Part shown: positions 27,163-52,923 of the stretch, piece after piece
Position numbering within the stretch: the stretch's first letter is position 1
Layout of the letters: each line of letters starts with the position of its first letter
Source: Candidatus Nitronauta litoralis
GTDB lineage: Bacteria > Nitrospinota > Nitrospinia > Nitrospinales > Nitrospinaceae
Length of the DNA: 64,000 nucleotides
Assembly (NCBI GenBank): GCA_015698285.1
Contig: CP048685.1
Coordinates: 3,286,001 to 3,350,000, forward strand
Direction: 5' to 3'
Notes under the pieces: model-generated
What the model saw: only the letters and a program-made list of their open reading frames with translations
Told to the model about the DNA's origin: nothing
Database searches by the model: none
Translations under genes and position numbers: made by a program

Positions 27163-29370
27163 TTATACCTTTTCCTCATGTTTTGCATGCGTGACATCGA
27201 AAAAAGTTTCACGGGTGGGAGTATGACCATCATTATCTTTCTCATCGCTATTCTCAACCCGGATGCGCAAGGTACCCTGAGTTTTCATTTTTTGATAGGC
27301 TTCCTTGCTTTCAGCCACCAGAGACTCGGCTTCGACAAGATATTCCCGGGCCATAGCTTCTTTCATTTCATCTGCAGAAGCTTCATAGCGGTTTGCGATA
27401 CCAGAATGTTTTTCATTAACAATCCCAGTGTCCACAATCAGTGATTCAAATTTTTGAATGGTCAAAAGATTATCCGAAAAGTCGATCCCTTCAGTGTGCA
27501 TCATACCGCGCGCACAACAGATGAATGCTCGTTGTGCCTGCTTCACTGAATCTGCAAAGTCGCCCTTTTCGAGTAGTTTCTTACATTGGAACAGGGCGCG
27601 CTCACCTTCGGAGATATGATCTGAAATTAATTCACTTATCGAACCGGCACATTCACCCTGACCACGGTCATCCAGCGAAAACCGGGTAGATGAGTGGTAG
27701 TCAATATAGGACTCGGGCGAATTTTCAATTGGAGGAACACTTTTTAGATCTTCTAACAGGACTCCAAAATACTTTTTGCCCAATCGATCGTAGTAGTCCT
27801 GAAAGGTTTCTCCATTCTGTTTAGCATTCTTATAGTCATCAATCAGACGACGAACCGCGTTGGGCGCATTTTTGGCTGGAATTTTGGCAACCGTTTCTCC
27901 AAAAGTTGCCTTGTTATCATCAATGCGTCCTCCCAGCATGACTTCATAGTGCGGTGCCAGAACTCCGTTTACCTTGCGGGCTGATCCTGAAAAACCAATG
28001 GCGGCAATATGGTGCTGGCCGCAGGAGTTGGGGCATCCGCTCGCTTTAACGGTGATGTGGTCAAGGTCTGAATCTCCAGTGAACTCGTTGTCGACATCGT
28101 CGCTCAACTGGTCGATCAATCCTCGGGAGTGAGTGATTCCAAGGTTACAGGTTTCTGAACCCGGGCAGCTGGTCATATCTTTAAGTTCTTCAGTGCCCGC
28201 TTTATGCAATCCCAGATCTTTCAGAATTCCATAAACATGCCCCAGTGCTCCTTTTTTAATCCACGGTATCATGATGTTTTGATGCGCGGTGTTTACCAGT
28301 TTACTGCCTGCAAAGTTACTGGCAAGGTCTGCAATGCTTCGTGCCTGTACGGTATTGAGGTCACCCAGAAGTAATTTTATGTGAACGTTGTAAAAACCCT
28401 TCTGACGCTGTTCAAAGGTATTGCGGGCTACCCAGGCTTGAAACTCGGGATCATGATCGAAATCGGTATTGTCTTTAAACTGTGGAATATTTGGAACGAC
28501 TTCATCCGGCGCTTCAATCTGTGGATAGTTTCTGTCCGCGAGTTTCTCATATTCCTCCATAATGAGTTCGCGGGTCTTGTCAAGCCCGAGACGCTCGAGA
28601 ACAAATTTGAAGCGTGCCTTATTCCGATTTTGCTTGTCACCATATTTGTCAAATACCGCCACAATGGCTTCACAAGTCCGCAGTAATTTCGAAACAGGTA
28701 AAAATTCAAATAGAGGTTCTGCGGATTTTGGGTAGGACCCCAGTCCTCCGCCGATCAGCATTCGAAAACCACGTTCCCCATTTTGTTCGCGGGCATTCAG
28801 TCCGATATCGTTAATTGGGCCAAGGCCGCATCCGTTACATCCTCCAAGGGTGATCTTGAACTTGCGGGGCAGGCTCTGAGTCAGGGGATGTCTGATTAGA
28901 TAACTCATCACTGCCTTGGCGTACGGGGTGACATCGAATAGCTCGTCGGGACAGGTTCCCGTCTTGTGACATGCGGTTACATTGCGCACGGTGTTGCCGC
29001 AGGCTTCCCTGGTGGTAAGGCCGCTTTTTGCAAGAAGGGCCAAAGCTTCCGTCACCGTTTTAATTTTGACAAAATGAAACTGGATGTCCTGACGAGTGGT
29101 TACATGCAGAATGCCATTTGAATACTTTTCGCCAAACTCCGCCAGACAGCGCAACTGATCTGCAGAGTACTGCCCAAAAGGAAGTTTGGTTCGAACCATT
29201 TGCTCATCATCCTGACGCTGGCCGTAAATACCCTGTTGGAGACGGAACCGCTTGAAATCCTCGACGTCCAGTTCTCCTGTTGTGAGACGTTCGACTTCCG
29301 TTGCAAAGTCTTCGATCTCTTGTATAACAGCAGGTGGAACATTCAATGATTTAAGTTCGGAACTGTCCAT
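27163..29370 (-). CDS. ferredoxin-type nitrite/sulfite reductase with C-terminal HEPN-like domain
   Basis: A 735-residue siroheme [4Fe-4S] reductase. Two half-domain repeats run over residues ~30-545; the motif TTREACGNTVRNVTAC marks the first half, and the cluster/siroheme ligands are CPGSETC and CPNSC. Residues ~600-705 form an extra helical region (ALFQCKKLLEKGDFADSVKQ...AFICCARG) resembling HEPN domains, and a short charged tail follows. The core reduces nitrite to ammonium or sulfite to sulfide with ferredoxin; sequence alone does not choose, though nitrite assimilation fits a nitrite-using lineage. GAGG precedes the ATG. It heads the yicC-gmk-hisC-mltG group. Confidence 0.87.
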   Translation of the reverse strand: MDSSELKSLNVPPAVIQEIEDFATEVERLTTGELDVEDFKRFRLQQGIYGQRQDDEQMVRTKLPFGQYSADQLRCLAEFGEKYSNGILHVTTRQDIQFHFVKIKTVTEALALLAKSGLTTREACGNTVRNVTACHKTGTCPDELFDVTPYAKAVMSYLIRHPLTQSLPRKFKITLGGCNGCGLGPINDIGLNAREQNGERGFRMLIGGGLGSYPKSAEPLFEFLPVSKLLRTCEAIVAVFDKYGDKQNRNKARFKFVLERLGLDKTRELIMEEYEKLADRNYPQIEAPDEVVPNIPQFKDNTDFDHDPEFQAWVARNTFEQRQKGFYNVHIKLLLGDLNTVQARSIADLASNFAGSKLVNTAHQNIMIPWIKKGALGHVYGILKDLGLHKAGTEELKDMTSCPGSETCNLGITHSRGLIDQLSDDVDNEFTGDSDLDHITVKASGCPNSCGQHHIAAIGFSGSARKVNGVLAPHYEVMLGGRIDDNKATFGETVAKIPAKNAPNAVRRLIDDYKNAKQNGETFQDYYDRLGKKYFGVLLEDLKSVPPIENSPESYIDYHSSTRFSLDDRGQGECAGSISELISDHISEGERALFQCKKLLEKGDFADSVKQAQRAFICCARGMMHTEGIDFSDNLLTIQKFESLIVDTGIVNEKHSGIANRYEASADEMKEAMAREYLVEAESLVAESKEAYQKMKTQGTLRIRVENSDEKDNDGHTPTRETFFDVTHAKHEEKV

Positions 29371-51416: not shown

Positions 51417-51446
51417 TTGATAATTCAAGGTTTTGTTAGGTATAAT
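51417..51446 (+). promoter_or_regulatory. strong sigma-70 promoter
   Basis: TTGATA (51417-51422), an 18-base spacer, then a perfect TATAAT (51441-51446). It is the best promoter in the window. A transcript from about 51453 would have a ~145-base leader before the PCP_red-Cld gene at 51598. Confidence 0.7.
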
Positions 51447-51597
51447 CGGATAATCCGAAAACCCACGTCTAATAAAGACTTGGGCCGCTTGCATACAATT
51501 TTGTAAAAGGGAAGGCTGGCCACTTGCTCGCTGGTACCTTTTGAAAAGCCAGGATAAATCTTAAATGTTTAAAAACCTATTTTCCTAAGGGATAGTT

Positions 51598-52548
51598 ATG
51601 GCCATTGATGACAAAGAGCTAGAAACTCTGATGCCGGCTCTCACCGTAGATTGGACCGAAGACGCCAAAGCCCGTATGTTGAATGTTCCTTTTTTCGTTC
51701 GCAAGAGTGTGGTGCGAGGCATCGAAACCTTTGCCAAGGAAAAGGGGTTGGACCTTATAGATGATGCGGTGGTCTCCAGAGCAAGACAGGAAAGAGAAGG
51801 TGCCGCCATTGAAGCACGACAGGCGGAACGAACAGCACAAGTTGAGGAGGGAAAAGAAGTTAAACGGCAATATGTCAATTTCAGTTTTTATAAACTGGAC
51901 CCAGCGTTCCGTCGTCAGCCCAAAGAAGTACGTGAACGTGCGAGGCAGGAGTTCATTGACTTGCTGACTGATATTGACAGCGAAGGTAACATGATCATGA
52001 TCTGCTATACGCTTATTGGTGTTAGAGCCGATGCGGATTTGATGCTCTGGAGGATTTCATACGAGATGGAAGACTTCCAGAAAATGAGCACCCGGATGTA
52101 TCAAACGGAACTTGGCAAGTGGCTTATCACAACCGATTCCTATCTATCCCAGACAAAGCGGTCCATGTATATGGACACATTGAATCCTGAACATGAGGAA
52201 GATAGAACTCATATCATTCCCGGAAAGGCTAAATACCTGTTCATTTATCCTTTCGTAAAGAAACGTGAGTGGTACCTGTTGACCAAGCACACCCGGCAGG
52301 GAATCATGGATGAGCATATTTTTGTCGGCAATAAATACCCATCAGTAAAGTTGAACACCACCTACTGCTTTGGATTAGACGACTATGAGTTCGTCGTGGC
52401 GTTTGAAAGTGATGAACCAGGTGATTTTGTTGACCTTGTCATGGACTTGCGTGAAACTGAAGGTAGTCGGTTTACTGAAAAGGACACCCCAATTTATACT
52501 TGTACTGCAATGGCTCCGGAAGATGCCGTAAACGCACTTGGAATTTAA
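51598..52548 (+). CDS. chlorite dismutase-family (HemQ-like) protein with N-terminal PCP_red domain
   Basis: A 316-residue protein. Residues ~14-62 (LTVDWTEDAKARMLNVPFFVR...) resemble the PCP_red helical domain of light-independent protochlorophyllide reductase subunit B. Residues ~70-85 are a charged linker. Residues ~88-312 are a chlorite dismutase / coproheme decarboxylase fold with KREWYLLTKHTRQGIMDEH (likely haem-binding His) and TTYCFGLDDYEFVVAFE. I cannot align an Arg to the distal-Arg position of true chlorite dismutases, so chlorite breakdown is doubtful. AAGGG lies 7 bases before the ATG. It has its own promoter and terminator and looks monocistronic. Confidence 0.85.
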   Translation: MAIDDKELETLMPALTVDWTEDAKARMLNVPFFVRKSVVRGIETFAKEKGLDLIDDAVVSRARQEREGAAIEARQAERTAQVEEGKEVKRQYVNFSFYKLDPAFRRQPKEVRERARQEFIDLLTDIDSEGNMIMICYTLIGVRADADLMLWRISYEMEDFQKMSTRMYQTELGKWLITTDSYLSQTKRSMYMDTLNPEHEEDRTHIIPGKAKYLFIYPFVKKREWYLLTKHTRQGIMDEHIFVGNKYPSVKLNTTYCFGLDDYEFVVAFESDEPGDFVDLVMDLRETEGSRFTEKDTPIYTCTAMAPEDAVNALGI

Positions 52549-52611: not shown

Positions 52612-52645
52612 AAAAAGCCGCTCTGTTTTCAGGGTGGCTTTTTTA
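52612..52645 (+). terminator. intrinsic terminator
   Basis: AAAAAGCC (52612-52619) pairs with GGCTTTTT (52636-52643); the stem continues inward with G-T and G-C pairs to a TTTT loop, and a T-run follows. It ends the chlorite-dismutase-family transcript. Confidence 0.88.
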
Positions 52646-52683
52646 TTAATTGGCGATAGTTTTTAGATTAATATTTGGAAACC

Positions 52684-52923
52684 ATGCAGGATAAACGTTA
52701 TATAGTGGTAGGAGACCATTTGACAGATGAAGACGGGTCTCCCCATTTTGTTGAGCCTTTGGAATTGTGCAGGCTTTATAAAATTGACCCAAGCCAGGCG
52801 GTTCTGGTTGACCGGCGTCATCATACTTATCGAATTATCATGCGCAAATATCCTGAGCTTCCTGTTTTATTGCCGAGGCAGGATGGAGATTATAGTCTCC
52901 AGAAAAATAATAGATTAAAGTGA
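52684..52923 (+). CDS. small hypothetical protein
   Basis: About 79 residues from the ATG at 52684, with GGAA about 5 bases upstream; a TTG at 52675 would add three residues. The sequence is polar (YIVVGDHLTDEDGSPHFVEP, VLVDRRHHTYRIIMRKYPEL) without signal peptide or membrane helix. I do not recognise it. It follows a terminator and converges with the J-MORN gene 2 bases away. Confidence 0.5.
   Translation: MQDKRYIVVGDHLTDEDGSPHFVEPLELCRLYKIDPSQAVLVDRRHHTYRIIMRKYPELPVLLPRQDGDYSLQKNNRLK

Follow-up and report, generated by a model that had tools for sequence, protein, structure and literature searches.

Coproheme is converted to haem b by two enzymes, ChdC (HemQ) and the oxygen-independent AhbD, which catalyse the same step (PMC7242693, PMC10548856); in some genomes, ahbD is colocalised with hemY/hemH/hemQ sets (PMC10548856, a review). 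ChdC is peroxide-dependent and belongs to the coproporphyrin-dependent haem pathway, which has been described as almost exclusively Gram-positive (PMC10427985). The same fold serves the chlorite dismutases (Clds). A distal Arg marks functional Clds, proteins without it have turned out to be ChdCs, and the position of the ChdC Tyr is occupied by Ile in Clds (PMC7611857, a review); in Cld-like proteins, moreover, the proximal Glu is replaced by Ala or Val (PMC4793301). The PCP_red domain, found at the C-terminus of BchB/ChlB (2KRU, 2L09), has served as one of a set of Pfam markers for phototrophs (PF08369; PMC12815261). Among the papers searched, none names PCP_red together with chlorite dismutase, or links coproheme decarboxylase to Nitrospina.

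Here we describe a 316-residue protein in which an N-terminal PCP_red domain is fused to a ChdC-type barrel. It is encoded in a 64,000-nucleotide stretch (the window) of the 3.92 Mb, single-contig genome of Candidatus Nitronauta litoralis, a marine bacterium of nitrite-oxidising type from the phylum Nitrospinota. Judged from its sequence, the fusion protein is very probably the coproheme decarboxylase of a coproporphyrin-dependent pathway, that is, a known enzyme in a new architecture, for which the case for function is good and that for the added domain weaker.

Architecture and gene layout

The first-pass annotation had read the protein as a fusion of PCP_red with a HemQ/chlorite-dismutase-type domain, and profile searches recover both parts far beyond chance. 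PCP_red (PF08369) matches residues 19-63 over profile positions 1-45 of 45 (47.6 bits against a cut-off of 32.5, E 1.7e-12), and Chlor_dismutase (PF06778) matches residues 112-304 (196.3 bits against a cut-off of 25, E 4.9e-58). The fusion forms one open frame in 43 of the 45 named Nitrospinota loci, and contig ends presumably cut the frame in the other two. Because a single frame is thus kept in relatives across the order, the fusion is real, and a frameshift, gene-caller, start-site or assembly artefact is rejected.

A structure model built on a wider alignment reaches a pLDDT of 83 (about 90 in the PCP_red core) and replaces an earlier one, made with close homologues only, of pLDDT 60. Its top Foldseek match is 9miq (E 4.5e-18); however, its fold agrees with Cld structures as well as with those of ChdC, so that residues rather than fold have to decide the function.

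The gene stands alone, with a divergent aminotransferase gene upstream, a promoter-like site of its own and a terminator on its 3' side, which suggests high, separate expression. The strong promoter reported in the first pass, TTGATA-18-TATAAT, matches the sigma-70 consensus at 11 of 12 positions, is the top-scoring candidate in the region, and is kept together with its surroundings (TTAGCGTTG..AA.CAAG.TTTTGTTAGGTATAATCGG) upstream of the orthologues in two relatives; the terminator reported with it also stands (Table 1). The leader of about 145 bases, the third such element, is present here, but its length is not kept, being about 85 and 50 bases, as read by eye, in two relatives. As no Rfam family matches the leader and its length differs in this way, a riboswitch-like element is rejected. 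Between the fusion gene and a DnaJ-MORN gene lies a small TTG-start frame of 82 aa (52675-52923, + strand), with tblastn matches in three close relatives only. Elsewhere in the window (27163-29370, - strand), a 735-aa nitrite/sulfite reductase-type protein has a long C-terminal extension without Pfam coverage.

Table 1. Features of the fusion gene and of related genes in the genome. Positions are those of the window unless preceded by a locus name; where the cited papers do not supply the numbering of a known enzyme, it has been checked against the alignments.
Feature	Position	Strand	Basis or remark
PCP_red-ChdC fusion gene, probable coproheme decarboxylase	51598..52548	+	ATG start, 316 aa; ORF and Pfam
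Sigma-70-type promoter	51417..51446	+	11/12 consensus matches
5' leader, ~145 bases	51453..51597	+	inferred start site; length varies among relatives
PCP_red domain, residues 19-63	51652..51786	+	Pfam, alignment
Linker, helical, of variable length, residues 64-89	51787..51864	+	alignment, structure model
Chlorite-dismutase/ChdC double ferredoxin-like domain, residues 90-314	51865..52539	+	Pfam, alignments, model, Foldseek
His199, actinobacterial distal His (C. diphtheriae H118)	52192..52194	+	alignment
Tyr217, ChdC catalytic Tyr (C. diphtheriae Y135)	52246..52248	+	alignment
His240, proximal haem ligand	52315..52317	+	alignment
Leu252-Asn253, at the Cld distal Arg site (NdCld R173)	52351..52356	+	alignment; 13 from the proximal His, as NdCld H160-R173
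Gly289, at the proximal Glu site of functional Clds (NdCld E210)	52462..52464	+	alignment; PMC4793301
Intrinsic terminator, 14-bp stem and T-tract	52612..52643	+	fold -20.1 kcal/mol, z -5.9
Second Cld-family protein, 277 aa	L015:3183-4016	-	G000:C1 about 1079182-1080015 + 1000 region; 1080233-1080631
Zinc-ribbon PCP_red protein beside Mrp-type ATPase	L011:2707-3144		
Tandem universal-stress PCP_red protein	L012:2396-4465		
NirJ2/AhbD-like radical-SAM/SPASM protein with PCP_red	L013:3016-4362	-	3.08 Mb in genome; also L146, L154
Protein of three PCP_red copies	L014:2758-3600		

Active site and haem pathway

By sequence, the solved structures closest to the fusion protein are those of coproheme decarboxylases (9mhq, E 6.9e-26; 6xub, E 2.9e-22), true chlorite dismutases scoring lower (3nn1, E 4.6e-13). 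With the actinobacterial enzymes of C. diphtheriae (6XUB/6XUC) and S. coelicolor (9MIQ) the protein shares the double ferredoxin-like fold, the proximal His, the catalytic Tyr that lies near propionate 2 in ChdCs, the distal His, the absence of both distal Arg and proximal Glu, and the presence of coproporphyrin-dependent pathway genes. The differences are the N-terminal PCP_red with its linker, Phe265 in place of the Trp that aligns at C. diphtheriae position 183, a non-actinobacterial phylum, and a score of 148 bits with the HemQ_actino equivalog (NF042928), below its cut-off of 235; by sequence, the protein would accordingly belong to the same wider family but outside that actinobacterial subgroup. 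His199, Tyr217, His240 and the Leu-Asn pair at the Arg site agree in all 45 named Nitrospinota loci. His240 and Tyr217 are invariant in a separate 35-row alignment as well, and His199 is absent from the Chloroflexi homologues.

The genome encodes HemE and HemH, from adjacent genes, and a HemY/CgoX-type oxidase, HemH and HemY both scoring above their cut-offs. Family searches, on which these absences rest, found neither HemF nor AhbA/B nor a true HemN in it, its only full-length HemN-like match being HemW; across the phylum, HemN exceeds its cut-off in a single genome out of 77. The coproporphyrin-dependent route is the haem route encoded here, no alternative having been found, and this complement makes the fusion protein the best candidate for the step from coproheme to haem b. 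HemE would then yield coproporphyrinogen III, from which the HemY/CgoX-type oxidase would form coproporphyrin III and CpfC, by inserting iron, coproheme. We infer that the C-terminal barrel binds this coproheme through His240 and, using H2O2 and Tyr217 with His199 as the distal base, would remove two propionates to give haem b. A coproheme- or tetrapyrrole-linked role, raised as a possibility in the first pass, thus gains support from the residues as well as from the encoded pathway, which would extend to Nitrospinota a route hitherto assigned almost wholly to Gram-positive bacteria.

Distribution and the chlorite dismutase of Nitrospina

Surveying the architecture, as had been suggested with the first annotation, places the fusion protein throughout the order Nitrospinales: it is found in 51 of 64 genomes, and in 27 of the 28 that are at least 90% complete (counted from the tables). 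No copy without PCP_red was seen in the order wherever the N-terminus lies on the contig, and the protein is missing from all 13 genomes of the class that lie outside the order. Named orthologues, up to 90% identical, come from Nitrospina and other Nitrospinota MAGs, a few of which carry older labels such as 'Nitrospirae'; one fusion lies outside the phylum, in a MAG labelled 'delta proteobacterium' (L091). A further one, suggested by a tblastn row for a Fimbriimonadaceae MAG, is rejected, as the ORF there begins just before the ChdC domain.

The barrel without PCP_red occurs in Planctomycetota, Chloroflexi, Armatimonadetes and others at 48-57% identity. In the Chloroflexi and Armatimonadetes loci L113, L117-L119 and L121-L125, a ferrochelatase gene directly follows that of the ChdC homologue, and in L122-L125 an AhbD-like enzyme comes next (L122 also has a frame that begins like HemA), a context expected from the colocalisation reported before (PMC10548856). 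Most of the ChdC homologues of L113, L115-L119 and L121-L125 are extended C-terminally to about 380-400 aa, and their distal His is absent.

The genome also encodes a second Cld-family protein, of 277 aa, with a signal-peptide-like N-terminus. It keeps the distal Arg (...FRKLYHS) in alignment with clade-2 Clds, is probably a true Cld, and is sporadic in the order; chlorite handling, if any, would belong to it. Nitrospina gracilis has been counted among the holders of a lineage 2b Cld (PMC9751292), which presumably corresponds to this Arg-bearing protein. Sun et al. described Cld-like genes in Nitrospina-like MAGs from oxygen-minimum zones in which Arg173 is replaced by Leu, and left their function open, in a paper that carries a correction on annotation (PMC8114937); later papers have continued to call chlorite dismutase a core or widespread gene of Nitrospina (PMC11373643, PMC8639706). 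Considering its conservation, the order-wide protein, in which Leu252 adjoins the Arg site, most likely represents the gene of Sun et al., and the published 'core chlorite dismutase' is probably the PCP_red-ChdC fusion. The order-wide gene would thereby gain a concrete function, haem synthesis, and would no longer support the idea that chlorite serves as an internal source of O2 in oxygen-minimum zones.

Two other functions for the fusion protein have to be weighed against this assignment. As the Nitrospina 'Cld' annotations suggest, it could be a genuine chlorite dismutase, detoxifying chlorite with release of O2: the fold is the same, Foldseek places NdCld structures among the best matches, and the proximal His and a conserved Lys near it are common to the protein and the enzymes NdCld (3NN1) and NwCld (3QPI). 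This is highly improbable, however, and we reject it, considering that the distal Arg, which the first-pass annotation could not place, proves absent in the haem-site alignment (Leu-Asn stands there), that Gly takes the place of the proximal Glu and Tyr that of the Cld Ile (PMC7611857, PMC4793301), that an Arg-bearing Cld is encoded elsewhere in the genome, and that the Nitrospina-like proteins of Sun et al. show the same loss of Arg173 to Leu (PMC8114937); the doubt voiced in the first pass about simple chlorite detoxification was well placed. Alternatively, the protein could be a ChdC-derived chaperone or sensor that binds coproheme or haem, the reaction itself being carried out by the NirJ2/AhbD-like radical-SAM protein with PCP_red. 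The latter is encoded in most genomes of the order, adjoins a c-type cytochrome gene at two of its loci (L013, L154), and reaches 323 and 305 bits with the NirJ2 and AhbD models, below their cut-offs; three genomes of the order, in addition, keep an AhbD-like protein without PCP_red. This alternative is improbable, given that the known ChdC catalytic residues are invariant and that the gene is present in all but one of the near-complete genomes of the order. Related radical-SAM proteins, furthermore, also occur in relatives with a full AhbD, so that this family probably has another job.

The PCP_red domain

Within PCP_red, the residues W19, R26, P31-F-F-V-R35-K36, R40, G41, I42 and E43 are invariant in the order. 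Residues 1-66 contain neither His nor Cys, which makes it unlikely that the domain ligates iron, and such a role is rejected. Like the C-terminal domain of BchB/ChlB, the module has 45 residues; unlike in those proteins, it is N-terminal and unaccompanied by the nitrogenase-like catalytic part, BchB models matching the fusion protein over their last 50-70 positions only. The genome carries eight PCP_red copies in five proteins (Table 1), none of them BchB-like. A part in chlorophyll biosynthesis is therefore rejected, and the earlier remark that chlorophyll genes are missing holds genome-wide as far as BchB is concerned. Judged by frame length, the five types of PCP_red protein recur through the order.

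The closest parallel comes from f9, a sister family in the class, where neither ChdC nor HemN was found and ferrochelatase is present in four of six genomes, adjoining hemE in both of those checked. In three of its genomes (L130-L132), an AhbD-like radical-SAM enzyme bears a C-terminal PCP_red, and its gene lies directly downstream of one for a universal-stress protein with PCP_red. At 456-459 bits, these enzymes fall short of the cut-off of 500 of the AhbD model (TIGR04545), which is still the best of all models for them. They share with the fusion protein the proposed step and the PCP_red subtype, and differ from it in a non-homologous catalytic part (radical SAM/SPASM) and in carrying the module at the opposite end. 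Ferrochelatase-oxidase operons occur in families f5 and f8, whose AhbD-like enzymes score close to the cut-off. In trees of PCP_red only, the domains of ChdC and f9 AhbD group apart from those of other proteins, with a support of 88/98 when L091 and all subtypes are included and 100/100 for a trimmed set, and both carry the motif MPx(5)W...PFF[VI]RK. These trees comprise 50 columns only and drew a long-branch warning from the program, and placements of the AhbD domains with other subtypes survive AU tests (p 0.09-0.15); the kinship is therefore a lead only.

Related PCP_red domains on the unrelated AhbD and ChdC point to a shared step or shared partners, namely coproheme or ferrochelatase. In the fusion protein, PCP_red may thus help in substrate handling, either by holding or guiding coproheme through R26, R35, K36 and R40, whose invariant basic side chains would suit its four propionates, or by docking to ferrochelatase; taken on its own, this role has close to an even chance. 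If true, a domain hitherto known chiefly from BchB would gain a role, and two non-homologous enzymes that catalyse the same reaction would be seen to share an accessory module. Alternatively, PCP_red could be a passenger that makes no contact with coproheme, serving oligomerisation, stability or localisation or acting as a hook to other PCP_red proteins such as the universal-stress fusion, while the barrel alone decarboxylates. We regard this as a serious possibility, if somewhat short of even: most homologues outside Nitrospinota lack the domain and, judged from their operons with ferrochelatase, work without it, so that the reaction as such does not require it; its occurrence on universal-stress, zinc-ribbon and multi-PCP_red proteins, with five types of protein carrying it here and in most relatives, rules out coproheme as its general purpose; and in f9 the universal-stress and AhbD fusions are neighbours. 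It sits less well with the subtype of the ChdC module, specifically common to the other enzyme of the same step, or with the invariance of the basic and PFFVRK residues across the order.

Returning to substrate handling, it is plausible that the oxygen-independent AhbD was replaced by the peroxide-dependent ChdC in the Nitrospinales line, with the module kept. More tentatively, and on balance doubtful, one PCP_red subtype might be a dedicated coproheme-handling module passed between the AhbD-PCP_red of one family and the PCP_red-ChdC of Nitrospinales when the terminal enzyme was exchanged; the domain would then hold tetrapyrroles or dock to chelatases more generally, including on BchB. Separately, a deep-branching member of the class encodes a 777-aa frame in which PCP_red is repeated at least five times.
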